From Actinomycetota bacterium (GTDB lineage Bacteria; Actinomycetota; Actinomycetes; JACCUZ01): a DNA stretch of 42,370 nt. Below, piece by piece: positions 9,174 to 42,370 of the stretch. Location of the stretch: contig JAVEDI010000120.1 in the NCBI GenBank assembly GCA_030841035.1, positions 1 to 42,370 on the forward strand. Reading direction: 5' to 3'. The translations under genes were made by a program, and so were the position numbers. Positions within the stretch are counted from its first letter, which is position 1, and each line of letters starts with the position of its first letter. Below the pieces are notes generated by a model. That model did not search any database. It had not been told where the DNA came from and saw only the letters and a program-made list of their open reading frames with translations.

Positions 9174-9206
9174 GACCCGACGCGGTCCGTCAACAAGGAG
9201 AAACGC

Positions 9207-10787: not shown

Positions 10788-10828
10788 CCGCCCGCCCAAC
10801 CGCATCGCCCCTTACCGAAGGAGATCCC

Positions 10829-11590: not shown

Positions 11591-11606
11591 CGAGATGTAC
11601 TCGACC

Positions 11607-11650
11607 CCACCCGCTCCGCGGGTGGCCACGTCAAGGGGCGCCGAACGCCC
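11607..11650 (+). other. Two short hairpins in the cyclase-RidA gap
   Basis: CCACCCGC-tcc-GCGGGTGG (11607-11625) is a perfect eight-pair stem, and GGGCG-ccgaa-CGCCC (11636-11650) is a five-pair stem, both in the 75-base gap between two genes of the same operon. Without T-tracts they look more like mRNA-stabilising or attenuating structures than full terminators. Confidence 0.45.
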
Positions 11651-11665
11651 GGAGGAGACACGACC

Positions 11666-13464: not shown

Positions 13465-13512
13465 GCAGCCCGAGCCGAGACGGAGGCCCACGAGGGGTCC
13501 GGGCAGCGGCGC

Positions 13513-13935: not shown

Positions 13936-14018
13936 GGCGACAGTGTTCCAGCACCCGAGGACCTGCGACGTTCCGCCGCCCGCTCTCCTGGCAGCGCGCC
14001 ATCGTGTAGAACACAACG

Positions 14019-15242: not shown

Positions 15243-15251
15243 GTTCCCCGC

Positions 15252-16259: not shown

Positions 16260-16264
16260 CGGCC

Positions 16265-16300
16265 CCGTACGACGGCGCCGGCGCCGGCACCGACGTACGG
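16265..16300 (+). other. Hairpin between formamidase and SDR genes
   Basis: CCGTACG (16265-16271) pairs with CGTACGG (16294-16300), enclosing a self-complementary GGCGCCGGCGCC tract. It fills the 74-base gap and may weaken read-through or stabilise mRNA. No T-tract follows. Confidence 0.4.
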
Positions 16301-16333
16301 CGCCTTCCCCTCTCCCGAAAGGCACTGGCTCGC

Positions 16334-17092
16334 ATGGACCTCCAGCTCAGCGGAAAGCGTGTCCTCGTCACCGGCGGAACCCGGGGCATCGGCCGGGCCA
16401 TCGTCGCCGCCTTCCTCGACGAGGGGGCGGTCGTGGGCTTCTGCGCGCGCAAGCCCGACGAAGTCGCTGCCACGGAGAAGGCGCTGAGCGCGCGCGGTGC
16501 CGTCACCGGCTCCGTCGTGGACGTCGGTGACGGCGAGGCGCTCGCCGAGTGGGTGCGGCAGTCGGCCGGGGCGTTCGGGGGACTCGACGTCGTCGTGGCC
16601 AACGTCAGCGCGCTGGCGATCCCCGACAGCGAGGAGAACTGGCTGGCCAGTCTCAACGTCGATCTGATGCACACCGTGCGGCTGGTCCGGGCCGCGATGC
16701 CCCACCTCGAACGCAGCGAGGCAGCCTCGATCATCGCCATCTCGAGCGTCTCGGGGCGCGAGTCGGACTTCGCCTCCGGACCCTACGGGGCAGCCAAGAC
16801 GGCCATCGTGGGCTACATCCACGGGGTCGCCATGCAGCTGGCCGAGAAGGGCATCCGCGCGAACACGGTGTCGCCCGGAAACACCTACTTCGAAGGCGGC
16901 GTCTGGGCCAGCATCGAGGCGGGCGACCCCGAGCTGTTCCAGACCGCGGTCGGTCTCAACCCGACCGGCCACATGGGAACGCCCGAGGAGGTCGCGGCCC
17001 CCGTCGTCTTCCTCGCCAGCCCGCGGGCCGGCCGGATCAGTGGCGCCAACCTCGTCGTCGACGGGGCGCTCACCCGCGGCATCCAGCTCTGA
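16334..17092 (+). CDS. Short-chain dehydrogenase/reductase
   Basis: A 252-residue classical SDR. The nucleotide-binding TGGTRGIG motif is at about residues 14-21, the active-site set is Ser in ISSVSG with Tyr-x3-Lys in PYGAAK, and the tail reads ISGANLVVDGALTRGIQL. An Arg/Lys-bearing segment after the second strand (CARKPDE) suggests NADP(H) preference, which is inference. It oxidises or reduces an alcohol/carbonyl pair; the substrate is unknown. The gene lies between formamidase and a VOC-fold protein in one direction. The ATG at 16334 gives MDLQLSGKRVLVTGG, the standard beginning. Confidence 0.92.
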   Translation: MDLQLSGKRVLVTGGTRGIGRAIVAAFLDEGAVVGFCARKPDEVAATEKALSARGAVTGSVVDVGDGEALAEWVRQSAGAFGGLDVVVANVSALAIPDSEENWLASLNVDLMHTVRLVRAAMPHLERSEAASIIAISSVSGRESDFASGPYGAAKTAIVGYIHGVAMQLAEKGIRANTVSPGNTYFEGGVWASIEAGDPELFQTAVGLNPTGHMGTPEEVAAPVVFLASPRAGRISGANLVVDGALTRGIQL

Positions 17093-17109
17093 CCCGGTCT
17101 GCCCCGGCC

Positions 17110-17523
17110 ATGACCGAGTACCCGCAGCTGCTGCACACCGCCATCGACACCACCGATGCCCGGGCACTCGCGGAGTTCTACCGGGAGCTCTTGGGACTGC
17201 ACTACCGCCCGGGTGACGAGCCTCCCGCGGAGGGTGTCGCCGACGATGCGGACTGGCTCGTCCTGCTCGACGCGAGCGGTGCCCGAAAGCTGGCGTTCCA
17301 GCAGGTCGAGCGTCTGGAGCGGACGACCTGGCCCAGCCATGACGTCCCGATGCAGATGCACCTGGACTTCACCGTCTCCGGTCGCGAGGACTTGCAGCGG
17401 CAGAGGGAGCGGGCGGAGTCGCTGGGCGCACAGCTGCTCATGGACCGCACGAGTGACCCGGACGAGCCGCTCTACGTCCTTGCCGACCCGTCAGGCCATC
17501 CGTTCTGCCTCTTCGTCGCCTGA
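17110..17523 (+). CDS. VOC-superfamily (glyoxalase-like) protein
   Basis: A 137-residue protein with paired beta-alpha-beta modules of the vicinal oxygen chelate fold. HTAIDTTDARALAEFYRELLG opens the first module and MHLDFTVSG the second, ending in YVLADPSGHPFCLFVA. Members include glyoxalases, extradiol dioxygenases and resistance proteins. The length and tail fit the small glyoxalase-like group often seen with catabolic genes in actinobacteria. The substrate is unknown. It follows the SDR by 17 bases and faces the PucR gene with a 45-base convergent gap. Confidence 0.85.
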   Translation: MTEYPQLLHTAIDTTDARALAEFYRELLGLHYRPGDEPPAEGVADDADWLVLLDASGARKLAFQQVERLERTTWPSHDVPMQMHLDFTVSGREDLQRQRERAESLGAQLLMDRTSDPDEPLYVLADPSGHPFCLFVA

Positions 17524-17568
17524 GGCCGCCGGACCCAGGCATCCCCCGTTCCGGCCGGTGCCGGGCCC

Positions 17569-19089
17569 TCAGTGCAGGCGGTCGGCCGACGTCGAGAGGT
17601 CGAGGGCGTGCAGCGCCACGAGCAGGCTGGTGCGCGCGCCGGGGTCGTCCAGGTCGGTGGCCAACAGGCTCGTGATGCGGGACAGCCGCTGGTAGAGGCT
17701 CTGCCGCCGGATGTGCAGTCGAGCCGCCGCTCCCGTCTTGCCCGACGTGCTCTCGAGCAGCGCCCGCAGGGTGTCGACGAGCCGGCCGCCTCGGCGCGCG
17801 TCGTAGGCGAGCAACGGGCCCAGGTGCTCCTCCGCAAGGCTCTGCAGCTGCTCGAGGTCATGCCCGTGCAGCAGCGCGCGCTCCAGCCCGACCTGCCGGC
17901 TCTCCACCACCCGGGTTCGGGGCGCACGGGCCCAGACCACGCGCAACGCGACGCTGGCCTCCTGCGCGCTGCGCGGCAGGTCGTCGACCCGCCTCGCGAC
18001 CGGTCCGATCGCGGCGACGGCGTCGATGCGGGCCAGCGGCATGCCGACCTCCAGGGACTGCCGCACGTCGGCGACGACGACCGGTGCAGCGCTCGCGGCC
18101 GCGATCACCGAGACGACGTACGACGTCCCGGCCGCGATCGCGGTCACGGACGAGGTGGGCGCGGCGCTCGAGCACGCCCGCTCGAGGACCGCGGCGACCC
18201 GCCCCGGTGCGGCACCGCGTCCCACGACGGTGACGTACGACGCCGCGTCCGCCGGCAGGGCTGCCTGGCGCAGCGCCGCCCGCGTGGCCGCGGCCCCGGT
18301 ACCGGTTTCGAGCAGCAGGCCGGCCAGATGCCGCCGACCCGACAGCGTGGCGGCCACAGTGTGCTCGTCACGCATGATCGCCAGGGACAGCGCCGTGGCC
18401 GCGCGCTCCAGAGCGGCCTCGCCCAGCGAGCGGTCGAGGCCCGTCAGATCGGTGTGCAGCCAGCCCGCGACCGCGCCGTGCACCAGCACGGGCACCGCAT
18501 CGGGCAGCTCGCTCGCCACCTCGAGGAGGGCCGCGTCGACGGGCTCACCGAGGCCGCCTTCGGGGACGAAGCGAACGGGGGCGCCGAGCACGTGCGACAG
18601 CCGGTCGAGCGCCTCAGGCACCCCGCCACCACCGACGAGCACCGAGGAGAGCTGCTGTGACACCTCGTCGGCGTGCCGCAACCGGTGCACGGCGGTGTCG
18701 ACGATGACGGCGTTGAGCGCCTCGGTCACCTCGACGAACGGCACGACGCGGTCCAGGCCCACCATCGGCAGCCCGACGCGCTCGGCTTCGGCGACCATCT
18801 CGGCGGGTGCGGCCGTGTAGTAGCGGCAGGTCTCGAGCACCAGTGCTGCGACCCCACGCTGGGCCAGGCTGCGCACGAACGAGCGCGCATCGGCCTCGTC
18901 CCGCCCGACCAGGCCGAGCCCGGTGGTCAGGAGCAGGTCGCCGTCGCGCAGCAGGGGCGCGATCTCGTAGATGTCACTCGAGTGCAGCCAGCGCACCTCG
19001 CGGTCGAGACGGTCCGCCCCGGCCAGCACCGTCGGCGCCCCGCGACGTACCACGGCATGGTCGAGCACGTCGTGGAGCAGCACGGGCAT
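17569..19089 (-). CDS. PucR-family transcriptional regulator
   Basis: A 506-residue regulator. The N-terminal PucR/purine-catabolism domain (about 4-125) begins LLHDVLDHAVVRRGAPTV and includes LRDGDLLLTTGLGL; a GGDEF-like middle part follows, and a C-terminal HTH_30 helix-turn-helix (about 445-500) reads AARLHIRRQSLYQRLSRI. Homologues respond to purine or other nitrogen metabolites. It is divergently transcribed from the codBA operon across 117 bases, so it most likely controls cytosine uptake and deamination and perhaps the upstream amide genes. The minus-strand frame is open far upstream to 20862, but the family start and GAGGGACGGAA site place the ATG at 19089. Confidence 0.9.
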   Translation of the reverse strand: MPVLLHDVLDHAVVRRGAPTVLAGADRLDREVRWLHSSDIYEIAPLLRDGDLLLTTGLGLVGRDEADARSFVRSLAQRGVAALVLETCRYYTAAPAEMVAEAERVGLPMVGLDRVVPFVEVTEALNAVIVDTAVHRLRHADEVSQQLSSVLVGGGGVPEALDRLSHVLGAPVRFVPEGGLGEPVDAALLEVASELPDAVPVLVHGAVAGWLHTDLTGLDRSLGEAALERAATALSLAIMRDEHTVAATLSGRRHLAGLLLETGTGAAATRAALRQAALPADAASYVTVVGRGAAPGRVAAVLERACSSAAPTSSVTAIAAGTSYVVSVIAAASAAPVVVADVRQSLEVGMPLARIDAVAAIGPVARRVDDLPRSAQEASVALRVVWARAPRTRVVESRQVGLERALLHGHDLEQLQSLAEEHLGPLLAYDARRGGRLVDTLRALLESTSGKTGAAARLHIRRQSLYQRLSRITSLLATDLDDPGARTSLLVALHALDLSTSADRLH

Positions 19090-27366: not shown

Positions 27367-27488
27367 GGTGATCGTGAGGGACGTCTCAGGTGATCGTGAG
27401 GGGACCCGTCGGTGATCGTGAGGCGACGTCTCAGGTGATCGTGAGGAGGTTCGGCACCGAAACGGTGCCGGATCCCCTCACGATCACC
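27367..27488. repeat. Four direct copies plus inverted copy of a 13-bp arm (palindromic element, copy B)
   Basis: GGTGATCGTGAGG occurs at 27367-27379, 27389-27401, 27411-27423 and 27434-27446, spaced 22, 22 and 23 bases, and is inverted at 27476-27488. The last direct copy, an inner GGCACC/GGTGCC stem and the inverted copy form the same 55-base palindrome seen at 12-65. The longer word ACGTCTCAGGTGATCGTGAGG (first 20 bases unique here) appears twice, 45 bases apart, so the extra copies arose by local duplication. It lies between the convergent ClpP-fold and ABM genes. Confidence 0.85.
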
Positions 27489-27507
27489 GGAGGCTGCGCT
27501 GTGGTTG

Positions 27508-29820: not shown

Positions 29821-30072
29821 CGACGAGTCGTACTCCTGATAGGTGATCGGTTCACCTGCCCGGGCACGCACGAATACCTGATCACGAAGTCGACGCCAGT
29901 CGACGTACTCACGTTCCCCGTCAGCCGCGTCAAGGGTCGCTCGGTGGTCGTCGTCGAGATCGGCATATAAGTGGTCACCCCGGACGTTCGCGATCTTGCC
30001 GGCATACGCGGCAGCCACTTCTCGCGCCGGGGTTGACTTCCCAGACCCGCCAGGCCCGTCGAGCACCACCGG
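29821..30072 (-). pseudogene. Remnant of a P-loop (uridine kinase-like) gene
   Basis: The minus-strand translation contains VVLDGPGGSGKSTPAREVAA (Walker A), VRGDHLYADLDDDHRATLDA and YVDWRRLRDQVFVRARAGEP followed by ITYQEYDSST. This order of motifs (Walker A, GDD-like, DWRRLRDEV, YxxYDWDT) is that of small uridine-kinase-like nucleoside kinases. After the YD-S-S-T motif the similarity stops and the remaining catalytic part is missing, and the residue after GKST is Pro rather than the usual Leu. No sound start region is seen. I read it as a truncated, inactive remnant. Confidence 0.6.
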
Positions 30073-30265
30073 CGAACGCTCGCCCGTCGTGTTCCTGTCC
30101 CTTCGACAGGCGTTGCCAAACACTCGGGTTGAGGAGCGGGTTGATGCCGCTCAGCCATGGTCGGGCGAACTTCCGCCTGGTCGAACGGGTGTCGCGGTGA
30201 GTCCCGTGACGATCGGACCGCGTCCGCCCATCGACCGCGCCGTTCACTCTTCGGCCTGCTAGGTG

Positions 30266-30294
30266 TTGACTTCAGCCCTAGACATGCTTAAGTT
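30266..30294 (+). promoter_or_regulatory. Candidate promoter for the sugar/glycoside cluster
   Basis: TTGACT (30266-30271) and TAAGTT (30289-30294) are 17 bases apart, about 100 bases ahead of the agarase-like gene. The -35 match is good and the -10 match is poor. The AT-rich word CTTAAG at the -10 could be part of an operator. Confidence 0.35.
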
Positions 30295-30394
30295 TCGTCC
30301 ACGTCAACTCAAGGTCAGCAGCCTGGCACCAAGCCAGCTGGCACCGACCACCGGGTGCTCGGTCAACTTCTAGTTCCACAGGGAGATCAGCGGG

Positions 30395-31546
30395 ATGTCT
30401 CAACTCTCTTCGTACGGCGGCTCTAAGAAATTCCAGTTTGAGGCCACGGGCTACTTCCGGCTCGAACAGGGCGACAACAGGTGGTGGCTCGTCGATCCAG
30501 AGGGCAACGGCTTCCTGAGCGTCGGCCTCAACCACATCGACGACTCCGACCTGAAGTACGACCACAACCTGGACCTCTGGAAAGAGCGGTACGGCGGGTC
30601 GCGAGACCGGTGGATCAAGGAGGGCGTTGCCCCCGACCTGAAGAACTGGGGCTTCAACACCATTGGCTGGACCCAGCAGTACATCGGCGGCGGCTGGCGG
30701 GAGAAGTTCGACTGGTCGCAGATCGTCGTCGTCGAGCACGGCGCGCAATGGACGACCGACGACTTCGTGAAGGCCGACACTCCGTTCATCGTGCACATGC
30801 GCCTGGCTGAGAACGAGAACTGGAACGGCCGCCCGTTCTACCCCGACCCTTTCGATGCGGACTTCGAGGATCACTGCGCGTATCTCGCTCGCAGCATCTG
30901 CGCAGACCTCGCCGAGAACAAGAACCTCCTCGGCTATTCCTTCGTGGACGCACCGCTTTGGTACCCCCACCCCGCCGGCGAGGACTGGCCTTCGCTTAAG
31001 GGCCTGAGCGAGTCATCGCGAGACGAGAAGCTCTTCGACGTCGCCACCAAGTACTACGAGACGATCCACCGTCACATCCGCAAGTACGACCAGAACCATC
31101 TCATCCTGGGCGACCGCTACAACGGCGACGTATTTCTTCCCGACGCCGTGCTGGAGGCAGCCAAGCCCTACATCGACGTGCTCTCGGTGCAGTACTACCC
31201 CGGCAACACCAAGCAGGAAATCCAGTCGATGAAAGAGCGGGCGACGGCCCTCTACAAGAAGGTCGGGCTCCCCATCCTCATCCCGGATATCGGGAACTGG
31301 ACGCCGACCGAGCTCAACCCCCAGCGCGACATGGACAACGTCGAGACGCAGGCTGACCGGGGTCAGCACTACGTCGACATTTTCAGCGAGATCATCAACG
31401 AGCCCTGGCTGCTCGGCTGGCACTGGTGCGGCTACATCGAGAACCTCAACCGAGGCTGGGGCATGAAGGACCCATGGGACGAGCCGTACTCCGAGTATGT
31501 CGACCAGGTCGCCGACTTCAACCGCAAGGTCTACGACCTGATCTGA
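30395..31546 (+). CDS. Agarase-like TIM-barrel glycoside hydrolase family protein
   Basis: A 383-residue cytoplasmic protein (no signal peptide) with the opening YFRLEQGDNRWWLVDPEGNGFLSVGLNHI seen in agarase-like clan-A barrels (only the motif at residues 15-43 is meant), then LKNWGFNTIGW, LLGYSFVDAPLW, DVLSVQYYP, LPILIPDIGNW and LLGWHWCGYIEN in barrel order. The positions where clan-A hydrolases carry acid/base Glu (normally DNE) and nucleophile Glu (normally GEF/GEY) read DAP and PDIG, so the normal catalytic pair seems absent. It leads a sugar transport and oxidation cluster, 212 bases ahead of the binding-protein gene. It may act on a small glycoside by an unusual mechanism, or only bind one. 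A GGGAG site supports the ATG. Confidence 0.7.
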   Translation: MSQLSSYGGSKKFQFEATGYFRLEQGDNRWWLVDPEGNGFLSVGLNHIDDSDLKYDHNLDLWKERYGGSRDRWIKEGVAPDLKNWGFNTIGWTQQYIGGGWREKFDWSQIVVVEHGAQWTTDDFVKADTPFIVHMRLAENENWNGRPFYPDPFDADFEDHCAYLARSICADLAENKNLLGYSFVDAPLWYPHPAGEDWPSLKGLSESSRDEKLFDVATKYYETIHRHIRKYDQNHLILGDRYNGDVFLPDAVLEAAKPYIDVLSVQYYPGNTKQEIQSMKERATALYKKVGLPILIPDIGNWTPTELNPQRDMDNVETQADRGQHYVDIFSEIINEPWLLGWHWCGYIENLNRGWGMKDPWDEPYSEYVDQVADFNRKVYDLI

Positions 31547-31626
31547 CGCACGTGCTGTGACGTCCTCGCGGGTCTGCCAGTGCGCTGAACTGGGCGATGA
31601 CCTGCCCCACAAGAGCTCGGCAGCTT

Positions 31627-31663
31627 CGCTTGCCGGCGGCGCTCGAAACGCCGTCGGCAAGCG
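31627..31663 (+). other. Strong 15-bp stem-loop between hydrolase and transporter genes
   Basis: CGCTTGCCGGCGGCG (31627-31641) pairs with CGCCGTCGGCAAGCG (31649-31663) with a single mismatch and a seven-base loop. It lies about 80 bases after the agarase-like stop and 95 before the binding-protein ATG. No T-tract follows on either strand. It could be a terminator, an RNase stop protecting the transporter mRNA, or an attenuator. Confidence 0.65.
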
Positions 31664-31758
31664 AGCAGATAAAGCGCGCCCCGCGTTCTGCCTCGACGGC
31701 AGTCCGGCCGGATTCCAATCCAGCCGGTTCCCCCCAGTTCACAAAGGAGTGAGTCCAC

Positions 31759-32823
31759 ATGGGCGAAGTGATGAATGAGTCGGGCATGAACCGGCGGCGG
31801 TTGCTCCAGGCGAGCCTGCTTGGCGGTGCAGGTCTGCTCGGCACCGGCGTTCTCGCCGGCTGCGCAGGCGCTGATGCTGCACCCTCGGCGGTCAGCGACG
31901 GTAAGGGATCTGGATCTGGCTGGGCGAAAGGCATGAACCTGAAGTTCTTCGCCGGCGGCGGTGCCGGCGATCTGTATGCCTCCGTAGTCGTCAACGGCGC
32001 GAAGAAGGCTGCCCAGGACCTGGGCTGCAAGATCGACTTCGTCTACTCCAACTGGGACCCCAATACGGCCATCCGGCAGTTGTCGGAGATCATTGCGACA
32101 AAGCCTGACGGGATCGCGATGGACGGGTCACCAGGTGACGACGCCATCATGCCTCTGGCCGCCCGGGCCGCGGAGAGCGATGTGACGATGACCTATTGGG
32201 ACGTCGACGTACCGAAGGTGAGAAAGGCGTACGGAGGTGGCTACGCCGGCGCTGACCTGTACTCGTTCGGATTCAACCTCGCGACTCAGGCAGCGAAGGA
32301 GTTCGGTCTCGGCGCCGGAGACGGCGCTGTGGTCTATGGCTTCTTCGCGTCGACCGGATTCGGCGTACGCGACAACGGTGTGGCCGAAGGACTGGAGAAG
32401 GCCGGAGTTGACGTCACCAAGATCACGATGCCGGTGGAGTCTGGCTCCAACCCGCAGAGCATCACCCCGATCATCGCCGGTGGTCTCGCGAAGAACCCCA
32501 ACACCAAGCTGATCTCGTTGTCGGGCGGCCAGTGGGTCGGCACCTCACCGGCCTACCTGAAGGCGGCGGGAAAGAAGCCGGGTGAAGTGAAGGTCGTAGG
32601 CTTCGACTTCCTGCCTTCCGTCATCGACGCGATGAACGGCAACTGGGCGCAGATGACGGCGGTCATGCAGCCGTATCTCCAGGGCTATCTCTCCGTGCTC
32701 TCGCTGTGCTTGACCAGGAAGTGGCATTTCCAGCCGCTTGTGGAGAACACAGCGACCGGCTACATGACGCAGGAGAACTACAAGACGTACGTCGAGTTGG
32801 CCAAGCAGGGCATCGCCGGCTGA
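31759..32823 (+). CDS. Sugar ABC transporter substrate-binding lipoprotein
   Basis: A 354-residue periplasmic-binding-protein type I (RbsB/FrcB-like) lipoprotein. The N-terminus has a twin-arginine signal (MNRRRLLQ) and lipobox LAGC at about residues 33-36, so it is exported and lipid-anchored. Features include DFVYSNWDPNTAIRQLSEIIATKPDGI around residue 95 and the C-terminal GFDFLPSVIDAMNGNWAQMTAV region. It should capture a sugar, polyol or glycoside for the ATPase and permease that follow. AAAGGAG ten bases upstream supports the ATG at 31759 rather than the internal ATGs at residues 5 and 10. Confidence 0.88.
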   Translation: MGEVMNESGMNRRRLLQASLLGGAGLLGTGVLAGCAGADAAPSAVSDGKGSGSGWAKGMNLKFFAGGGAGDLYASVVVNGAKKAAQDLGCKIDFVYSNWDPNTAIRQLSEIIATKPDGIAMDGSPGDDAIMPLAARAAESDVTMTYWDVDVPKVRKAYGGGYAGADLYSFGFNLATQAAKEFGLGAGDGAVVYGFFASTGFGVRDNGVAEGLEKAGVDVTKITMPVESGSNPQSITPIIAGGLAKNPNTKLISLSGGQWVGTSPAYLKAAGKKPGEVKVVGFDFLPSVIDAMNGNWAQMTAVMQPYLQGYLSVLSLCLTRKWHFQPLVENTATGYMTQENYKTYVELAKQGIAG

Positions 32824-32865
32824 GGGATCCGACCTGTCCGACCACCAGTACTCCGAAGGATCCTT

Positions 32866-33678
32866 ATGGTAGCGAGCGGCAACCGAGTCCTCGAACTCGA
32901 TGGCATCACGAAGTCATTCGGCGGCGTCAGAGCCGTAGACGGTGCTTCGTTCCACGTAGACGGTGGCGAGGTCGTCTGTCTCCTTGGTGACAACGGTGCG
33001 GGCAAGTCGACGCTTGTCAAGATCATCACCGGCGTGCACACGCCGGACAGCGGGCAGATGTCGATCAACGGCGAGCTGATCAAGCGCTGGAACCCGGCGC
33101 GGGCCCGCGACGCTGGTGTCCAGACGGTGTTCCAGGACCGGTCGCTGGCTGGTCGGCAGACGGTGGCGCGGAACATCTTCATGGGGCGCGAGCTGACAAC
33201 TCGGTTCGGGCTGATCGACGACAAGAGGCAGGAAGCCGAAGCGGAAGCATTGCTGCGCGGCGTAGGGTTCACGTCCAAGGCACTCTCCGCCAGGTCAGAG
33301 GTCCTCAACCTGTCCGGTGGCGAACGGCAGGGGATCGCCATCGCTCGAGCCATGCACTTCGCGGCCCGGCTGCTCATCCTGGATGAGCCCACCGAGTCCA
33401 TGTCGCTCACCCAGATCCGGCTCACCCTTGGCTTCACGCGCGCAGCGCGTGACCGGGGCATTGCCGTGCTGCTGATCTCGCACAACATCGCCGACGCGTA
33501 CGCCGTGGGCGACCGGTTCTTGGTACTGGATCGGGGTCGTGTCCTGGAGACCTTCCACAAGTCGGAGATCTCGGAGGGCGAGCTCGTCCGGTTCATGGAA
33601 CACGCCAACGCTGACTCGGCGGGAACCGGGAGCCGAACTACCTCGGAGCGTCAGACGACCCAGGAAAGTAGCGCGTGA
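32866..33678 (+). CDS. Sugar ABC transporter ATP-binding protein (single domain)
   Basis: A 270-residue ATPase of the carbohydrate-uptake CUT2 type but with one nucleotide-binding domain, like FrcA. Walker A is GDNGAGKSTLVK (about 44-55), Q-loop VFQD, signature LSGGERQGIAIAR, Walker B LLILDEP, and switch His in ISHNIADAYAVGD. It would act as a homodimer beneath the single permease. GAAGG lies ahead of the ATG, 42 bases after the binding-protein gene; the end overlaps the permease start by four bases. The double-domain RbsA-type ATPase at 40775-42322 belongs to a separate system. Confidence 0.92.
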   Translation: MVASGNRVLELDGITKSFGGVRAVDGASFHVDGGEVVCLLGDNGAGKSTLVKIITGVHTPDSGQMSINGELIKRWNPARARDAGVQTVFQDRSLAGRQTVARNIFMGRELTTRFGLIDDKRQEAEAEALLRGVGFTSKALSARSEVLNLSGGERQGIAIARAMHFAARLLILDEPTESMSLTQIRLTLGFTRAARDRGIAVLLISHNIADAYAVGDRFLVLDRGRVLETFHKSEISEGELVRFMEHANADSAGTGSRTTSERQTTQESSA

Positions 33679-34748
33679 TGGCCACTACACGTTTCGCGAA
33701 AGCACCCGCGCCAGCTGAACCCGCACGTAGGGGACCCGGGGGGCGGCAGTTCTTCAGGACCCACCGCGAGCTGACGAGCGCGGCGACCTTCTTCGTCGCC
33801 ATGCTGGGGGTCTTCGCGCTGGCGAACCCCGGAGTGTGGCTGCGCGGCGATATCTTCGCAGCGGTTGCGACGACAATGCCTCAGCTCATGATCCTGTCAG
33901 TCGCCCTTGTCTTCGTTGTCGCACTCGGCGAGATAGATCTCTCCTTCCCGTCCATCATCACGCTCGGGTCCCTCGTCTTCGCGTCCGCAGCCACTGCCGG
34001 CATCCAACCTTCCGTTGCAGTACTGCTTGCGCTGCTTGCCGGGCTGGGAGCCGGTCTCCTCAACGGTGTCCTCGTCGCTTACCTCGGGCTATCGTCGTTC
34101 GTGACCACCCTGGGTATGAACTTCTTCTGGGCGGGTCTGATCAACATCCTGTCCAACGGCAGTGGAAAGCCCTTGCAGTTCATGTCAGGTACAGCTGAGT
34201 TCAACGCGTTCGTGGGAACGGTGTTCGGCATCCCGGTACAGCTCTTCTGGGGACTCGCTGCCGCGGCGATCGGCGGCCTGCTCTTCAGCAAGCACAAGTT
34301 CGGTGCGTACGTGCGTTTCGCAGGTGACAACCGGGAAGCTGCAGCACAGTTGGCCGTTCCCGTGCGTGCCATTAAGGTCGCGAGCTTCTCCTATGTCGGC
34401 CTGTCAGCAGGCCTGGTCGGCGTCATCGTCACCCTCGTCAACGTCAACTTCTACCCCAACGTTGGTGCCGGTCTGCTGCTACCAGCACTCGCGGGCGTTT
34501 TCGTCGGCGGCACTCCGATGTTTGGGGGCGTGGGCACGATCGCGGGTGCTGCAATCGGTGCGATCACGATCAGTTTCATCAATGTCGGCATCATCACCAG
34601 CGGTCTGTCGGGCTTCTGGACCGATTTTGTCTACGGCATCGTCATCGTTCTCTCCTTGGGCGTGCACCGCATCGCCGAGCGCTTCTCGTTCCGGCCGCGG
34701 ACTGGACGCAACAAGCGAGAACCCGCTGCGGTCACGCCCGCGGCATAG
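33675..34748 (+). CDS. Sugar ABC transporter permease (RbsC type)
   Basis: A 357-residue inner-membrane permease of the BPD_transp_2 family with about ten helices. Motifs typical of RbsC are VVALGEIDLSFPSIITLGSL (residues about 72-92), the AYLGLSSFVTTLGMNFFWAG segment and the cytoplasmic coupling loop around FAGDNREAAAQLAVPVRAIK. It completes a three-part importer with the preceding genes and presumably forms a homodimer. Start GTG 33675 or ATG 33678, overlapping the ATPase stop. Followed 41 bases later by the oxidoreductase gene, in one operon by spacing. Confidence 0.92.
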   Translation: MMATTRFAKAPAPAEPARRGPGGRQFFRTHRELTSAATFFVAMLGVFALANPGVWLRGDIFAAVATTMPQLMILSVALVFVVALGEIDLSFPSIITLGSLVFASAATAGIQPSVAVLLALLAGLGAGLLNGVLVAYLGLSSFVTTLGMNFFWAGLINILSNGSGKPLQFMSGTAEFNAFVGTVFGIPVQLFWGLAAAAIGGLLFSKHKFGAYVRFAGDNREAAAQLAVPVRAIKVASFSYVGLSAGLVGVIVTLVNVNFYPNVGAGLLLPALAGVFVGGTPMFGGVGTIAGAAIGAITISFINVGIITSGLSGFWTDFVYGIVIVLSLGVHRIAERFSFRPRTGRNKREPAAVTPAA

Positions 34749-34789
34749 AGGAGCAGCCCAGCGAGATCGAAGTCGGAGGTGGAATTCCC

Positions 34790-35932
34790 ATGACATCCCA
34801 GACGGCCCAACAGACGTTCGGAGTCAGCCGGACAGCGCCGGCAACGCGTCTGCGCTCCGGGATCGTGGGCGTCGGCTTCATCGGTGAGGTACATGCGCGG
34901 GCAGTGCGCGCGGCCGGTGGCACGCTTACGGTCGTGACCGACTCGACCCCTGAGCGGTCCGCGGCGAGTGCGGCACGCCTGGGAGCAGCGTGGGGGGCGC
35001 CAGACGCTGAGGCACTGATCACCTCGGACGACGTGGACGTCGTACACATCTGCACCCCCAACTACCTGCACGCGCCGATAGCACGCGCGGCCCTTCGCGC
35101 GGGCAAACACGTCATCTGCGAGAAGCCGTTGGCGACTAGCCTCAGCGATGCAGGCGAGCTCGTCGCTGCCGCGGCCGCAGCGCGATTAGTTGCGGCAGTG
35201 CCGTTCGTGTACCGCTACTATTCGACGGTTCGTGAGGCCCGCGCGCGGGTGCACAGTGGCGAGAGCGGCCCGTTGCGCCTCATCCACGGTTCCTACCTGC
35301 AGGACTGGCTCTCGAGGACTGATGATCACAATTGGCGGGTGGATCCGGCCTTCGGTGGCGCGTCGCGGGCGTTCGCTGACATCGGCGTGCATTGGTGTGA
35401 CCTCGTGGAGTTCGTCACCGGCCATAGGATCGTGGCCGTCATCGCCCGCCTGATGACCGCGGTGCCGGAACGAAGTTCCGGATCTCGACAAGGCACAGTC
35501 GGAACCGAGGACGCCGCCACTCTCATGTTCGAGACTGACCGCGGCGCCGTCGGCTCCCTCGTCGTGAGCCAGGTCTCACCGGGCCGTAAGAACCGGCTGT
35601 GGTTCTCTCTCGACGGCGCAGCCACCTCCATGGCGTTCGACCAGGAGGCTCCCGAATCGCTGTGGATCGGAAGCCGCGACTCCGCCTCGTTGATCACGCG
35701 CGGCGCCGGGAGCATGTCGGCGGATGCGGCGCGGTTGTCGGTGCTTCCGGCTGGACACCCGCAGGGCTACCAGGACTGCTTCAACGCTCTTGTCTCGGAC
35801 GTCTACGCAGCTGCCGCAGGGGAAGCCAGAGAAGGGCTGCCGACGTTCGCAGACGGTCTCAGGGCGACACAGCTGACCGAGGCGGTGCTGTCGTCAGACG
35901 CCGACGGTACGTGGGTGAAGGTTGCCCCATGA
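34790..35932 (+). CDS. Gfo/Idh/MocA-family NAD(P)-dependent sugar oxidoreductase
   Basis: A 380-residue dehydrogenase. The Rossmann motif GIVGVGFIGEVHARA is at about 24-38, CEKPLATSL carries the conserved Lys of the EKP motif, and DIGVHWCDLVEF gives the usual catalytic Asp/His pair. The family oxidises sugar or inositol hydroxyls, including C3 of levoglucosan and glycosides. Placed after a sugar importer and before two sugar-isomerase-type barrels, it probably makes a keto-sugar or keto-glycoside intermediate. The N-terminal 20 residues are an extension beyond the fold. The GGAGGTGGAATTCCC site lies just before the ATG, and the stop overlaps the next start. Confidence 0.92.
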   Translation: MTSQTAQQTFGVSRTAPATRLRSGIVGVGFIGEVHARAVRAAGGTLTVVTDSTPERSAASAARLGAAWGAPDAEALITSDDVDVVHICTPNYLHAPIARAALRAGKHVICEKPLATSLSDAGELVAAAAAARLVAAVPFVYRYYSTVREARARVHSGESGPLRLIHGSYLQDWLSRTDDHNWRVDPAFGGASRAFADIGVHWCDLVEFVTGHRIVAVIARLMTAVPERSSGSRQGTVGTEDAATLMFETDRGAVGSLVVSQVSPGRKNRLWFSLDGAATSMAFDQEAPESLWIGSRDSASLITRGAGSMSADAARLSVLPAGHPQGYQDCFNALVSDVYAAAAGEAREGLPTFADGLRATQLTEAVLSSDADGTWVKVAP

Positions 35933-36849
35933 AGCTGGGATTTCTCACGGCATGCATGCCGAAGCTCGGTCTTGAGGAGATTGCCGCCTGGGCCGCGTCG
36001 AACGACTTTGAGGCGCTCGAAGTGGCGGCCTGGCCTGACCTCGGTGACCGGCCGTTCACTGCGACCCACCTGTCGGTCGAACAGTTCTCCGAAGGGGACG
36101 CCGAACGCACCGCGAAGCTCTTTACCCACCACGGGCTCACACTTTCCTCGATCGCCTTCTATGACAACAACCTGCACCCGGACGCCAAGGTCCGTCGCGC
36201 GGTCAACGAGCACGTCGCGGCGTGCATCGATGCGGCCGCCTTGCTCGGCTGCCCGACCGTCGGCACATTCGTCGGCCGCGACCCGTCCAAGCCCGTCAGT
36301 CAGAACCTGCGTGAGGCGGAGAAGGTCTTTGCGCCACTGGTTGAGCGTGCGGGAGAGAAGGGGGTCAAGCTCGTTATCGAGAACTGCGTGATGGAGGGGT
36401 GGCATCCCGACGGCTACCCCGGCAACCTGGCCTACTCTCCGGAGCTTTGGGAGTGGATGTTCTCGATCGGGCTCTACCTCAACTACGATCCGTCTCACTT
36501 GGTATGGATGGGCATCGACCCGGTTGAGGCGCTACGTCCGTACGTGGACAAGGTGGCGCACGCTCAGGCCAAGGACATCGAAGTTTTCGCGGGCCGGCGC
36601 AATCGCTATGGATTCCCGGGTAAGGCGGTCAACCGCGAGGACCCGTGGGACGTGGGATGGTGGCGCTACCGCGTGCCGGGACTCGGCGAGGTCGACTGGC
36701 AGCGTGTCGTGGACACGCTCTACGAGGGTGGCTTCGAGGGCGTCCTGTCGGTGGAGCATGAAGACCCCGTGTGGGGAGGCACGGAAGGCCGTGTGCGCAC
36801 CGGTCTTCAGGTCGCCCACCGCACCCTTCGTCCGCTGCTCGTCGCATGA
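35929..36849 (+). CDS. Sugar phosphate isomerase/epimerase-like TIM barrel (AP endonuclease 2 family)
   Basis: A 306-residue xylose-isomerase-like barrel. Probable metal ligands are Glu in LVIENCV, Asp/His in LNYDPSHLVW, His in KVAHAQAKD and Glu in SVEHEDP. The family isomerises or epimerises sugars; relatives next to Gfo/Idh/MocA dehydrogenases catalyse beta-elimination or hydration steps on 3-keto-glycosides and in levoglucosan and inositol breakdown. The ATG overlaps the dehydrogenase stop, so the two proteins are made together. Which of these reactions applies cannot be told from sequence alone. Confidence 0.9.
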   Translation: MKLGFLTACMPKLGLEEIAAWAASNDFEALEVAAWPDLGDRPFTATHLSVEQFSEGDAERTAKLFTHHGLTLSSIAFYDNNLHPDAKVRRAVNEHVAACIDAAALLGCPTVGTFVGRDPSKPVSQNLREAEKVFAPLVERAGEKGVKLVIENCVMEGWHPDGYPGNLAYSPELWEWMFSIGLYLNYDPSHLVWMGIDPVEALRPYVDKVAHAQAKDIEVFAGRRNRYGFPGKAVNREDPWDVGWWRYRVPGLGEVDWQRVVDTLYEGGFEGVLSVEHEDPVWGGTEGRVRTGLQVAHRTLRPLLVA

Positions 36850-36939
36850 CCATGGGGGCGCGCCCGCCGTCCGGAGCGCCCCACTGGCCCCGACCCACCT
36901 TCTCCCATACCTGATAGTGCATCCAGGAGATCGACAGAC

Positions 36940-37974
36940 ATGCATGCCGTTCTGCTTCCAGGCGACCGAGAGGTCAGCATCGTTGACAGGCCCCTTCCCG
37001 CGCCTGGTCCTGGGGAGGTGCTCATCCGCACCCGTGCCTCGGCGATCTGCCGCAGCGACATGGGCCTTTACACTGGCGGCTCCGCGATCGTCGGTGGCGG
37101 TGGCGCCGGTAAGGGCCTCGTCGTACCGGGCCACGAGCCCGCCGGCGAAGTTGCTGAGCTCGGGCCGGGCGTCAAGGGTCTGGCAGTCGGTGACCGCGTA
37201 GCCGGCTACCTTCCGATCGGCTGCATGCGTTGCGAGCACTGCCTGTCGGGCTACTTGATGTTGTGCAACGAATGGCGGTGTCTCGGCTTCGATGTAGACG
37301 GCGGTGATGCCGACTATCACGTTCTGCCAGCGCAGAATTGTCTGCCGTTGCCCGACGAGATCTCTTTCGTCGGCGGCGCATTGATGACCGACATGGTGGG
37401 CTCGCAGTACCACATCCAGAGAGTGCTCGGCGTCCGCGGCGGTATGACGGTCGGAGTCTTCGGTCTCGGCCCGATGGGCGCCGCTGCCGTGATGGTTGCC
37501 AGGGCTTTCGGTGCTCGGGTCATCGCTGTCGACCTGATCGACGCGCGCTTGGACCTGGCCAAGAGACTTGGTGCCGAGCTGACCGTGAACAGCCGACAGC
37601 ACGACCCGGTCAGCGCGCTGCGCGAGGCGACTGCCGGAGTAGGGGTCGACGTGGCCATCGACTGCTCCGGGGCTCCTGCAGGACAGAACGCCGCACTCGA
37701 CGCGGCCGCCAAGCGGGGAGCGGTCGCCTTTGTCGGAGAGTCACGTAAGACCGAGGTCAACCCCAGCGACCAGATCATCCGAAAGCTGCTCACGGTCGTG
37801 GGCGGGTGGTACTTCCCCCTTGGAGAATGGGCGGAGATCTCTCGCTTCGTCGTCGAGAACGAGCTGCCGGTCGAGGAGCTGGTGACACACAGGTTCCCTC
37901 TGTCCGACGCAGCCGAGGCATTCCGCGCCTTCGACGCCAGGGAGACCGAGAAGGCCGTCTTCACCTGGGAATGA
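36940..37974 (+). CDS. Zinc-dependent alcohol dehydrogenase (MDR family)
   Basis: A 344-residue medium-chain dehydrogenase. Catalytic zinc ligands are Cys37 (AICRSD) and the His-Glu pair of PGHEPAGEV; the structural zinc loop is GCMRCEHCLSGYLMLC with four Cys. The cofactor loop is GVFGLGPMGAAAV, and the acidic end of the next strand (VIAVDLIDARL) suggests NAD. It would oxidise a sugar alcohol or secondary alcohol of the pathway, like sorbitol, threonine or inosose-type dehydrogenases. The ATG follows a 90-base gap that contains only a CAGGAG site. It lies between the two isomerase-like genes. Confidence 0.92.
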   Translation: MHAVLLPGDREVSIVDRPLPAPGPGEVLIRTRASAICRSDMGLYTGGSAIVGGGGAGKGLVVPGHEPAGEVAELGPGVKGLAVGDRVAGYLPIGCMRCEHCLSGYLMLCNEWRCLGFDVDGGDADYHVLPAQNCLPLPDEISFVGGALMTDMVGSQYHIQRVLGVRGGMTVGVFGLGPMGAAAVMVARAFGARVIAVDLIDARLDLAKRLGAELTVNSRQHDPVSALREATAGVGVDVAIDCSGAPAGQNAALDAAAKRGAVAFVGESRKTEVNPSDQIIRKLLTVVGGWYFPLGEWAEISRFVVENELPVEELVTHRFPLSDAAEAFRAFDARETEKAVFTWE

Positions 37975-38014
37975 CGCATCTTCCAGTCACTGCTCACTGA
38001 CGAGGAGAACTCAC

Positions 38015-38866
38015 GTGTTCCGCTACACCGCAGAGATCCTTCCGTATCACGACTACTCGCTCGAGGCGTCGATCTCGGAGCTGGCAGACCTCGGGTTCAC
38101 CGAGGTCAACCTCTGGTCCTCCGCGCACCCGCTGGCGTCCCACGTCAACCCCGGTGACGACGTCGCCAAGATCAAGGGTGTCCTCGAGCAGTTCGGCGTG
38201 AAGCCGTGCGGCCTCACGATGTACGGCAAGAACCAGGACGAGATGCTCGAGCGGATCGAGTTCGCCGCTGACCTCGGCATCGATACCGTCATTTTCGACT
38301 GCGAGGCGAACTACTCCGACTTCGTCTCGAAGTTCCTCCCGCCCCTCGTCGAGGCAGGGGAGCGCAACGGCGTGCGGATCGCCGTCGAGAACCACCTGAC
38401 TGTGCCGTTCAGCGCCGACTTCGAGGCTGGCGGGAACGAGGACAAGCGGTGGGACGAGGGGGTTGACACCTTGGCCCAGATCAAGCGCTTGGTCACGGAC
38501 ATCGACCACCCCAACCTGGGCGTGTGCCTGGCCCCTCCGCACCTCTGGGTCAAGGGCGAGACGATCAGCGAGGCCATCATGTTCCTCGCCGAGCGCAAGC
38601 GGCTCTTCTACTACTACATCTGGGACATCGACCGGTCCTACCGTCACGGCGTCGACGGCCTGAACTTCGGTCCCGGGGAGAAGCAACTGCCGCGGCCGGA
38701 CGGCACCATCGACCATGCTGTACCGCTGGCCGTGCTCAAACGGGTCGGCTACGAGGGCGCCGCGAGCCTGAAGTGCCACGGCACGCACGGCTGGTCATTG
38801 GAGAAGGTGACCAGCCAACTACGCGGTGCTGACGCCTACATCAAGGACTGCCTGTCACGGATCTGA
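38015..38866 (+). CDS. Second sugar isomerase/epimerase-like TIM barrel
   Basis: A 283-residue xylose-isomerase-like barrel, distinct from the one at 35929-36849. Candidate ligands are Glu in RIAVENHL, His in LAPPHLW, Asp in YIWDID and His in LKCHGTHGW, a set that differs from the first barrel at two strands. Two such proteins with one Gfo/Idh/MocA dehydrogenase recall the levoglucosan and C-glycoside pathways, where one barrel eliminates and the other hydrates. GTG with an ideal GAGGAGAA site. It is the last intact gene of the cluster; remnants of unrelated genes begin at once after its stop. Confidence 0.88.
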   Translation: MFRYTAEILPYHDYSLEASISELADLGFTEVNLWSSAHPLASHVNPGDDVAKIKGVLEQFGVKPCGLTMYGKNQDEMLERIEFAADLGIDTVIFDCEANYSDFVSKFLPPLVEAGERNGVRIAVENHLTVPFSADFEAGGNEDKRWDEGVDTLAQIKRLVTDIDHPNLGVCLAPPHLWVKGETISEAIMFLAERKRLFYYYIWDIDRSYRHGVDGLNFGPGEKQLPRPDGTIDHAVPLAVLKRVGYEGAASLKCHGTHGWSLEKVTSQLRGADAYIKDCLSRI

Positions 38867-38869
38867 AGG

Positions 38870-39138
38870 AGGACCGACTCGGTGCCGTAGAGGCTCACGG
38901 TCTCTGCGTAGGACGCGAGCGCGCGCATACCCATCTCGAGCGTTGCTGGGGTACGACGCACCCGCAGCTTCGTCATCGCGATCGTCAGCGACGCCGTCCT
39001 GCATGACCAGCGACGGCTCGGGGGCGTGCGGGCTGTGCAGCGCGACAGTCCCAGGCCGACGTCCTCGTGTGCGAAGCCGTCGAGGTTGACCCGCTGCTGG
39101 TCCATGAACCGGATGCGTCCGACGTGATGATTAGCCAC
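38870..39138 (-). pseudogene. Remnant of B12-dependent diol/glycerol dehydratase large subunit
   Basis: Minus-strand reading gives blocks of the PduC/DhaB large subunit in correct order but with gaps. IRFMDQQRVNLDGFAHED matches the N-terminal start, then in a shifted frame VALHSPHAPEPSLVMQDGV matches the next segment, back in the first frame AMTKLRVRRTP matches the M(T/Q)KMRARRTP motif, and MRALASYAETVSLYGTES matches the (C/S)YAETxSxYGTE motif. At least two frameshifts, large internal deletions and a missing C-terminal two thirds make it non-functional. The remnant ends where the neighbouring isomerase gene ends, which marks a recombination junction. Confidence 0.72.
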
Positions 39139-39146
39139 GGGCGAAC

Positions 39147-39430
39147 CTAGTCAACGACGGGTGCGCTGGAGGCCGACTCCCACCGGGCCATGGCGGCGCG
39201 CGCGCAACGGACGTCCTGCTCCACGCTGCCGCCGCTGACCCCGATACCCGCGACCGACCGGTCGCGGGATCAACACGGCAGGCCACCGCCGAACACGACA
39301 TACCGCCCACCACCGCCCGGGACCGGGAGGGCGGTCAGCTGTGGGTGGCCACCTCGTGCACTTCGAGCGGTGAGCACGCGGGCCTGGCGACCAACGGTGC
39401 GTCGAGGACCGCCGCGGACACCATGGTTCG
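39147..39430 (-). pseudogene. Remnant of GlcG/DUF336 (PduO C-terminal-like) protein
   Basis: The minus strand reads ARGGHPQLTALPVPGGGG, then RYVVFGGGLPC, a stop at 39270-39272, then SRDRSVAGIGVSGGSVEQDV and CARAAMARWESASS, ending at the stop 39147-39149. VVFGGGLP and GIGVSGGSVEQDV are hallmark motifs of the GlcG/HbpS heme-binding (DUF336) family. The in-frame stop and the scrambled N-terminal part mean it is broken. DUF336 proteins and domains commonly accompany B12 diol dehydratase genes, so this and the neighbouring remnant probably come from one former cluster. Confidence 0.68.
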
Positions 39431-39498
39431 GCGTTCGGGCCCGTAATCATGGACCGGCGCCGAGGCATGATCCGGCGACGGCCCGCCAAGCCCTGGAC

Positions 39499-39523
39499 GG
39501 CTGTGTCTCGTTCTAAGACAGCC
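39499..39523. promoter_or_regulatory. Dyad upstream of second sugar ABC system
   Basis: GGCTGTGTCT and AGACAGCC face each other across a short spacer with a two-base bulge, about 95 bases before the binding-protein start. It is a candidate operator for the transporter operon, or an upstream part of the decayed region. Weak evidence. Confidence 0.3.
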
Positions 39524-39617
39524 ATGTAACAACAGGGGACACCACGGCGAGGAACCCCCGATCCACACTCACAGCGGCGCGCAACTGCGCGAGGACGTGT
39601 TCTCGGTGGAGGTAGAT

Positions 39618-40778
39618 GTGGGTAGGATCCGGTTTCGTCGCCTGGTTGCCCTAGGCGCGTTGGCTTTTCTAGCGGTGGGGTGTGCCACCGGCGCGGACGG
39701 GACGGGCTCGACCGCAGCCTCCGGGGGTCCCTCGGGCAAGCCGACGACCAAGGAGGTAATCGACCAGTTCCTGCTCACGCCCCCCGACGCCAAGTCGTTC
39801 TCGGCGGAGGAGTCGGAGCCGGTAACTGCGCCGATCCAGGGCGGCTCGATGTCGCTACCGTACAAGCACGTGCTGCCGTTGCCGGATGGACCGATCGGTG
39901 ACGCCAACAAGACCTACACGTTCTGCTTCTCTCAGGCCCTGACCGGCTCGACGTGGGCGGTGGCGCAGCAGGAGAGCGTCATGCTCGAGGCCAAGCGGCA
40001 CCCGAACGTCAAGGTGTTGTACTACAACACCAATAACGACCCGCTGAAGCAGGTCGCCGACCTGGAGACGTGTGCCGCGCAGAAGGTTGACGCCTACCTG
40101 ATCTGGCCGCACTCCGTGGAGCCGCTCACGCCCGAGATCGAGAAGCTGCACAAGAACGGCGGCCTCGTAGTCGGCATGGAGCGCACCGTCGCGACCCGGG
40201 AGTACGACACCTGGATCTACCTCGACAACACCAAGGCCACGGCCGACCTGGCCGACGCGATCGGCAAGAAGCTGGGTGGCAAGGGTGTCGTGGTCGAGAC
40301 CGAAGGCGCGATCGGTTCGTCGCCGCAGATCCTGCGCAAGACCGGGTTCGCCGAGGCGCTGGCCGCGAAGTACCCCGACATCAAGGTCAAGTTCACCGCC
40401 CCCACCGACTACAGCCGTGGCCAGGGGTACAAGGTGGCGCTGGACTTCCTGCAGGCCAACAAGGACCAGCCCATCGACGCGTGGTACACGCACTACACCG
40501 AGATCGGTTTCGGGGTCGCCCAGGCGCTGAAGGACAACAATCGCACGGACATCCCGCAGTTCTCGATCGTCGACGGCAAGAAGGCGGTCGCGAGCGTGCA
40601 GGACGGCACCTTCTTCGCGATCGCCCCGTGGACGCCGGTGCACGGTGACGTGGCCTTCCGGGCCGCGGTCTACCACCTCACCGGACAGGAGGTCCCGAAG
40701 AACATCTCGCTGGTGCAGCCCCCGCTCATCACCGCGGAGAACGCCGCCGACGTCCTGCAGCAGACCTGGCCCGGGTGA
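39618..40778 (+). CDS. Sugar ABC transporter substrate-binding lipoprotein (second system)
   Basis: A 386-residue type I periplasmic binding protein with a lipoprotein signal (RFRRLVALGALAFLAVGC, lipobox Cys near residue 22). A low-complexity Gly/Ser/Thr linker follows, then the two-lobed domain with TYTFCFSQALTGSTWAVAQQ at its first strand and VDAYLIWPHSVEPLTP in the hinge-side strand. GTG at 39618 is preferred over GTG at 39597 because GGAGG lies five bases before it. It feeds the double-domain ATPase next to it. The ligand is not evident; sugars, polyols and quorum signals are possible for the family. Confidence 0.87.
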   Translation: MGRIRFRRLVALGALAFLAVGCATGADGTGSTAASGGPSGKPTTKEVIDQFLLTPPDAKSFSAEESEPVTAPIQGGSMSLPYKHVLPLPDGPIGDANKTYTFCFSQALTGSTWAVAQQESVMLEAKRHPNVKVLYYNTNNDPLKQVADLETCAAQKVDAYLIWPHSVEPLTPEIEKLHKNGGLVVGMERTVATREYDTWIYLDNTKATADLADAIGKKLGGKGVVVETEGAIGSSPQILRKTGFAEALAAKYPDIKVKFTAPTDYSRGQGYKVALDFLQANKDQPIDAWYTHYTEIGFGVAQALKDNNRTDIPQFSIVDGKKAVASVQDGTFFAIAPWTPVHGDVAFRAAVYHLTGQEVPKNISLVQPPLITAENAADVLQQTWPG

Positions 40779-42322
40779 TGCCGACCACGAACAACGCGAT
40801 CATCAGTCCGGAGGGGGGAGAAGGGGACGCACGTCCCCTTCTCTCCCTGACGGGGATCAGCAAGCGGTTCCCGGGAGTCACCGCGCTGGACGACGTGGAC
40901 CTGCAGCTATGGCCCGGCAGGTCCATGGCGCTGGTGGGCGAGAACGGGGCGGGCAAGTCGACGCTGATCAAGGTCGTCTCAGGCGCGCTGCACCCCGACG
41001 AGGGCCAGATCCTGCTGGACGGCCGAGCGGTGAGCATGCGCTCGCCCGCCGAGGCACGCAGGCACGGCGTCAGCCTCGTGCCGCAGGAGCTCTCGGTGGC
41101 CGGCGACCGCAGCGTCGCCGAGAACATCTTCATGGGCCACCTGCCGCGCCGCGGGCCGCTGGTCAACCGGCGCCGGCTGCGGGCCGAGGCGCGCACGCTG
41201 CTGCAGCGGCTGGGCATCCAGGTCGAGCCCGGCTCCGCCCTGGCGGCGCACACCCCGGCCACCCAGCAGATGGTGATGATCGCTCGCGGCATCGCCCTGC
41301 AGGGTCGGCTCTTCATCCTCGACGAGCCGACCGCGGCGCTGACCGACCCCGAGATCGAGCGCCTGTTCGCCGTGCTCCGGGAGCTCAAGGCGGCGGGCGC
41401 TGCACTGCTCTACGTGAGCCACCGGCTGGGCGAGCTGCGCGAGATCGCCGACGACATCACGGTGCTGCGCGACGGGCGCGTGGTCGACCGGGTCTCCGCC
41501 AAGGACGCCACCGAGGACGGACTGGTGCGGGCCATGGTCGGCCGGCCGGTCGAACGGTTCTTCGACACCCGTTCCGCGCACCAGGTGGAGAAGCGCGAAC
41601 GGCTCACGGTGCGCGGCCTGACCCGCACCGGGGTCTTCGAGGATGTCAGTTTCACGCTCCACGGCGGCGAGGTCGTCGGTCTCGCCGGCCTGATGGGAGC
41701 AGGCCGCACGGAAGTCGCCCGTGCGGTGTTCGGCGTCGACCGGGTCCAGGCGGGTCAGGTCCAGGTGGACGGCAAGGCGGTGCAGATCCGCTCACCCCGC
41801 GCCGCGATCGCCGCCGGGATCGCCCTGGTGCCCGAGGAGCGCAAGTCCCAGGCGCTGGTCCTCGACTTCTCGATCTCGGACAACATCGTGCTGCCGCATC
41901 TGCGGGAGCTGGCGAAGGTGGCCGTCCTGCAGGAGCGCAGGCTGCGCTCGTACAGCCGCCGGGTGGCCGAACTGGTCGGCATCAAGGCGCCCAGTGTCAC
42001 CGTGCCGGTGCGCAGCCTGAGCGGAGGCAACCAGCAGAAGGTGGTGCTGGGCCGGTGGCTGACCAACACGCCGAAGATCTACATCCTCGACGAGCCCACC
42101 CGCGGCATCGACGTCGGTGCGAAGGCCGAGATCTATCAGCAGATCGGCCGCCTGGCCGACCAGGGCGCGGCCGTGCTTGTCATCTCCTCCGAGCTGCCCG
42201 AGCTGCTGGGCATCTGCGACCGGATCCTCGTGATGCGCGCCGGCCGGCTGGTGGGCGAGTTGGAGGCGGGTGTGGCGTCGGAGGAGTCGGTGTTGGAGTT
42301 GGCGATGGGGACGGGTGGCTGA
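40775..42322 (+). CDS. Sugar ABC transporter ATPase, double domain (RbsA/MglA type)
   Basis: A 515-residue fused pair of nucleotide-binding domains. Domain 1 (about 25-250) has Walker A GENGAGKSTLIK, Walker B LFILDEP and YVSHRLGEL, but its signature is the degenerate TQQMVMIARG. Domain 2 (about 270-510) has the degenerate Walker A GLMGAGRTEVARA usual in this family, a good LSGGNQQKVVLGRWL signature and IYILDEPTRGIDVGAK. This complementary arrangement is normal for CUT2 importers. The start overlaps the binding-protein stop (GTG 40775 or ATG 40778) and the stop overlaps the next ATG, so the operon is tight. Confidence 0.93.
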   Translation: MMPTTNNAIISPEGGEGDARPLLSLTGISKRFPGVTALDDVDLQLWPGRSMALVGENGAGKSTLIKVVSGALHPDEGQILLDGRAVSMRSPAEARRHGVSLVPQELSVAGDRSVAENIFMGHLPRRGPLVNRRRLRAEARTLLQRLGIQVEPGSALAAHTPATQQMVMIARGIALQGRLFILDEPTAALTDPEIERLFAVLRELKAAGAALLYVSHRLGELREIADDITVLRDGRVVDRVSAKDATEDGLVRAMVGRPVERFFDTRSAHQVEKRERLTVRGLTRTGVFEDVSFTLHGGEVVGLAGLMGAGRTEVARAVFGVDRVQAGQVQVDGKAVQIRSPRAAIAAGIALVPEERKSQALVLDFSISDNIVLPHLRELAKVAVLQERRLRSYSRRVAELVGIKAPSVTVPVRSLSGGNQQKVVLGRWLTNTPKIYILDEPTRGIDVGAKAEIYQQIGRLADQGAAVLVISSELPELLGICDRILVMRAGRLVGELEAGVASEESVLELAMGTGG

Positions 42323-42370
42323 TGGAGGTGGGTCGGGTGGGGGTGTCTGAGGTGGTGGGTTCGGTGGATT
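42322..42370 (+). CDS. Start of next gene, presumably the ABC permease (partial)
   Basis: An ATG at 42322 overlaps the ATPase stop and the frame stays open to the window edge (16 codons, starting MEVGRVGVSEVV). Position in the operon suggests the RbsC-type permease; the sequence seen is too short to show it. Confidence 0.5.
   Translation, partial: MEVGRVGVSEVVGSVD

Follow-up and report, generated by a model that had tools for sequence, protein, structure and literature searches.

A decayed B12-dependent dehydratase operon fragment inside an accessory sugar cluster of an actinomycete genome

A microcompartment locus of the RMM2 type with a diol dehydratase is described in the part of Axen et al. 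2014 (PMC4207490) on which we draw, and the part of Liu et al. 2004 (PMC522871) concerned with pseudogene origins traces many prokaryote pseudogenes to failed horizontal transfer. The DNA analyzed here, called the window, is a 42,370-nucleotide stretch that constitutes contig C46 of G000, a genome of 3.95 Mb in 120 contigs. It contains a gene remnant that can be compared with both. Like PduC/DhaB1 (PF02286), the remnant keeps N-terminal sequence blocks of the large subunit, but it is frameshifted and has neither the C-terminal part nor the medium subunit. Unlike the RMM2 locus in that part of Axen et al., the window retains no more than a short piece of the dehydratase arm. The remnant shares with the failed-transfer pseudogenes treated in that part of Liu et al. 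that it is disabled, shrinking and apparently foreign; it differs in that its source would be a close relative and in that an intact native orthologue is present. It is genuine but ordinary gene decay.

Anatomy of the remnant

A PF02286 (Dehydratase_LU) profile search of G000 matched two places, contig C37 and the window. The window match lies on the minus strand at 38863-38943 (E 4.3e-6; 27 bits, exceeding the family cut-off), and the 100-aa minus-strand ORF 39138-38836 matched in two stretches (E 6.8e-11; 41.8 bits, against a curated cut-off of 25). At best, a single stretch accounts for 26 of the 552 profile positions. At the DNA level, the remnant aligned in order with intact dehydratase genes. 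Its best local alignment score against contig C32 of G001, the only other congeneric genome in the searched set, was 531, compared with a maximum of 38 in 200 shuffles. Window 39138-38869 is thus confirmed as a fossil of the large subunit of a B12-dependent diol/glycerol dehydratase.

A sequence-only reading of this DNA had proposed such a fossil at 38870-39138, with conserved large-subunit blocks preserved in order amid frameshifts and deletions, and had suggested a translated search for the dehydratase family. The profile match above cut-off and the DNA score bear out the identification, and the alignment to G001 bears out the description of the blocks. The interval covers the dehydratase part almost exactly; the strand, which that reading did not state, is minus. 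The reading was correct on the dehydratase part and missed the adjoining GlcG/HbpS-like piece, a local inversion and the intact copy on C37.

No more than about 270 nt of the large-subunit gene survive (minus strand 39138-38869), and deletions and frameshifts leave no complete frame of approximately 550 residues. Since the source beyond approximately codon 235 is wholly absent, a working active site is not expected. Directly upstream, minus strand 39423-39147 is the remnant of a GlcG/HbpS-like gene, which matched the C-terminal 40 positions of PF03928 (E 2.1e-10, with the stop written as X). The total fossil is about 555-607 bp. Its blocks, read on the minus strand of the window, were mapped by blastn against the intact locus of G001 (reverse-complemented contig C32):

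38869-38941, minus strand: dehydratase block G, which carries the PF02286 match to profile positions 208-234; source positions 4011-4083 in reverse-complemented C32; 67/73 identical
38942-38989, minus strand: dehydratase block F, after a deletion of ~230 nt; one 1-nt gap; 53/56 to G001 over 38996-38942
38991-39138, minus strand: dehydratase N-terminal block with a GTG start at 39138; one 1-nt gap; within a 304/327 block to G001; 82% to C37
39147-39315, minus strand: GlcG/HbpS-like 3' end, with one in-frame stop ahead of its own stop; within the same 304/327 block; source of the PF03928 match
39311-39340, minus strand: GlcG block D, collinear; 27/30 to G001
39343-39370, plus strand: GlcG block C, in inverted orientation, as it also is against C37; 26/28 to the opposite strand of G001 (E 1e-6)
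39364-39399, plus strand: GlcG block B, inverted; 32/36 to the opposite strand of G001 (E 3e-8)
39399-39423, minus strand: GlcG block A, collinear; 24/25 to G001
39452-39475, minus strand: possible extra collinear block, from the intergenic stretch between the ROK and GlcG genes; 20/24 to G001, a score reached in 1 of 1000 shuffles

The 304/327 block (window 39315-38991) spans the end of the GlcG/HbpS-like gene and the beginning of the dehydratase gene, which shows that a single operon was the source. The G001 counterpart of the possible extra block, 39475-39452, is the stretch just before the ROK gene, with the order kept.

Relative to G001, source lengths of approximately 109, 27, 230 and 203 nt are missing at the junctions of the remnant, and the further damage consists of three 1-nt gaps, a stop codon in frame and an inverted segment that is in part a duplicate. 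At three of the six junctions, read by eye, 4-5 nt are common to both sides (5 nt at the block F junction that follows the ~230 nt deletion). Inverted block B draws on source sequence that partly coincides with that of blocks D and E, making it a partial inverted duplicate. Because the inverted blocks partly duplicate directly oriented sequence, a template switch fits and a plain inversion does not; the inverted duplicate in the GlcG part therefore probably arose by a template switch. Within 38700-39700 we found no direct repeats and a single weak inverted pair (21 nt, 76%), and neither an insertion element nor a border repeat was evident at the remnant.

The surrounding sugar cluster

The remnant lies between two intact genes, the second of which is followed by a transporter ATPase gene:

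38015-38866, plus strand: TIM-barrel (xylose isomerase-like) gene, intact, left neighbor; PF01261; 86% paralogue on contig C82 of the same genome
39597-40778, plus strand: sugar-binding protein gene SBP2, intact, right neighbor; PF13407; probable start at 39618 by eye
40775-42322, plus strand: sugar ABC transporter ATPase gene ATP2, intact; PF00005 in two stretches

In L031, a Mycobacteriaceae MAG contig, the gene order is alcohol dehydrogenase, TIM barrel, sugar-binding protein, ATPase, and the 445-bp gap between the TIM-barrel and binding-protein genes has no noteworthy match to any dehydratase locus. Plasmid pP27867_2 of Cryobacterium arcticum carries, as a single run, binding protein, ATPase, permease, dehydrogenase and TIM barrel. 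These gene runs indicate that the genes flanking the fossil are one exchangeable catabolic set and that the fossil sits inside it. They rule out the fossil as the end of the sugar cluster, and the proposal that it marks where the cluster joined or stopped is not supported. Arthrobacter plasmid pSI-1 was rejected as junction evidence: it has the dehydrogenase and TIM barrel, but no adjacent SBP2.

A scan for SBP2 across the genome contig collection gave four loci. L030, L032 and L033 have SBP2 and the ATPase with no match to the 38015 TIM-barrel protein, and L031 is the sole empty TIM-SBP2 junction found. SBP2 was found in 1 of 98 genomes of relatives at 1e-60, and the TIM-barrel protein in 1 of 393 genomes of the class at 1e-80; in both searches this was the window's own genome alone. 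The suggestion that relatives might keep an intact diol dehydratase beside the 39618 ABC system found no match either, as a binding protein or ATPase of this type accompanied none of 11 dehydratase loci (C37 and ten relatives' stretches, some with short flanks).

The sugar cluster at window 30395-42322 looks like an accessory island. The G001 matches listed for window 30395-38000 comprise a paralogous one at ~70%, and those listed for window 1-16000 are long blocks at 76-85%. A second, partly parallel sugar cluster is present in the same genome at 4306-13813 of contig C82 (L019), where the oxidoreductase, the dehydrogenase and both TIM-barrel proteins of the window have paralogues at 70-86% protein identity.

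The native operon and the divergence of the remnant

The dehydratase on C37 is intact (PF02286, E 2.9e-234). It encodes a fusion of the large and medium subunits (PF02286 + PF02288), and the solved proteins closest to it in sequence are glycerol dehydratases whose alpha and beta chains are joined (9vii). Small-subunit and reactivase genes follow. On the opposite strand are genes for GntR, SDR, phosphotransferase, BMC, aldehyde dehydrogenase and aminotransferase, and then comes a plus-strand amino acid permease gene. All of these components, from dehydratase and reactivase to permease, liken C37 to the RMM2 locus as presented in that part of Axen et al., and the combination of BMC shell protein, aldehyde dehydrogenase, aminotransferase, GntR and SDR with a diol dehydratase on the opposite strand fits the RMM2 type. 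The complete RMM2-like locus occupies C37 (L003) 3887-19052, with a GlcG/HbpS-like gene directly before the joined large-medium dehydratase gene. The dehydratase is likewise preceded by a GlcG-like gene in 8 of 10 relatives' stretches, the remaining two being without the 5' end of the dehydratase gene.

Both G000 and G001 are fragmented assemblies. C37 3878-6355 matches G001 C32 starting at the first base of C32, and C37 6460-17000 matches G001 contig C342 up to its last base (34984), so the two G001 contigs are probably pieces of one locus corresponding to C37. We regard C37 as the native orthologue. The claim that a deletion in the window removed the organism's diol-utilization genes finds no support, given this intact operon and the closeness of the fossil to G001.

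The remnant is 92.4% identical to G001 (445 columns), 78.2% to G002, 77.8% to G007 and 71.1% to C37 (440 columns). In a tree of 10 sequences (G003 was left out, as its contig starts inside the dehydratase gene), the remnant grouped with G001 with a bootstrap of 98 in IQ-TREE and a support of 1.000 in FastTree. Most change is on the remnant's side (branch 0.077-0.084, versus 0.010-0.013 for G001). Between C37 and G001, the dehydratase genes are 82.6% identical and diverge at 37.3% of third positions; the remnant is thus closer to G001's gene than the native copy is, as expected of a failed horizontal transfer. Background identity between G000 and G001 is 75-87% in long blocks (three 16-kb stretches) and 70-93% in short ones, and one short orthologous block (152 bp) also reaches 93%.

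Substitutions between the remnant and G001, counted over blocks A, D, E, F and G with the two inverted blocks left out, number 9/158, 9/158 and 13/157 at codon positions 1, 2 and 3. This spread is compatible with an even distribution (P 0.20) and incompatible with a functional pattern (P 5e-4). With its frame disabled and its codon-position constraint lost, the remnant is a pseudogene. The third-position difference of ~8% is far below the 37% of the orthologue pair, and a relic kept since the species split would differ far more.

Origin of the fragment

We consider it probable that the remnant is a horizontally captured operon fragment from a G001-like relative, which decayed neutrally while the native operon stayed intact on C37. 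Capture is favored by the higher identity to G001 than to C37, the bootstrap support, the even substitutions and the empty L031 junction. The source would have been a fragment of ~1.1-1.3 kb comprising most of the GlcG/HbpS-like gene plus approximately the first 235 codons of the dehydratase large subunit. It would have come from a relative close to G001, exchanged among close relatives once the species had split, and been placed antisense between the TIM-barrel and sugar-binding-protein genes of the accessory sugar cluster. Never needed while the C37 operon was intact, it may then have shrunk to its present size through deletions, in part at short sequence matches, along with the loss of single bases and one inverted rearrangement resembling a template switch. 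The direction and timing of the transfer, the mechanism of repair and the host of capture (the present one or one that carried the sugar cluster earlier) are our inference; the donor is likewise suggested by one genome. As a counterpoint, L031 may have lost an ancestral dehydratase, since its junction is a single empty one and its neighbor proteins are only 62-80% identical to those of the window. The uneven identity of orthologous blocks between G000 and G001, with the 152-bp block at 93%, the lack of an insertion element or border repeat, and the fragmentation of both assemblies also count against capture. A more doubtful extension of capture is that the sugar cluster itself once resided in a G001-like host and there, where its two modules meet, caught a scrap of that host's microcompartment operon by end-joining or template switching. 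If so, the scrap is a tag of that former host and illustrates how catabolic islands get stitched together.

The sequence-only reading corresponds to vertical descent, with an ancestral second copy or the original dehydratase locus beside the sugar genes being deleted in place. We judge this improbable. The remnant does lie between gene modules, with its end almost at the TIM-barrel stop (a few bases away), and a strong ribosome-binding-like AAGGAGG directly after that stop (38867-38873) has no gene behind it and is perhaps the leftover of a lost downstream gene. However, the native copy is intact and syntenic with G001, the TIM-SBP2 junction is empty in L031, and a neutral relic from before the split would be expected to differ from G001 as much as orthologue third positions do. 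Decay in place of the native operon is ruled out by the intact C37 operon and the too small divergence.

It is very unlikely that a stray G001-like piece was joined into contig C46 by an assembly or binning error. G000 is reported to be 3.19% contaminated and is in 120 contigs, but the remnant, set against G001, shows deletions, a stop and an inverted duplicate, and it is identical to no intact copy found. The rest of C46 also compares with G001 (blocks of 85, 85, 76 and 70% in window 1-16000) much as C50 (75-85%) and C91 (81-93%) do. We give least credence of all to retention as an antisense or regulatory RNA or small protein: ORF 39138-38836 is open and a promoter-like site lies on the minus strand at 39154-39127, but the ORF departs from the old frame and continues into TIM-barrel antisense, the site falls on the old GlcG-dehydratase border, 30000-42370 has no Rfam match, and the substitutions are near-even over codon positions.

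Capture and decay carry a caution, in that a damaged gene next to a cluster is no sure guide to what the organism lost; here, the enzyme is still present. The fossil more likely records gene exchange among close relatives and small-scale repair damage.

Elsewhere in the window, a repeat of ~55-60 bp occurs at 27434-27493 and 12-69, with many copies on other G000 contigs at roughly 80-96% identity. At some places it matched on both strands, which points to a dispersed, possibly palindromic element.
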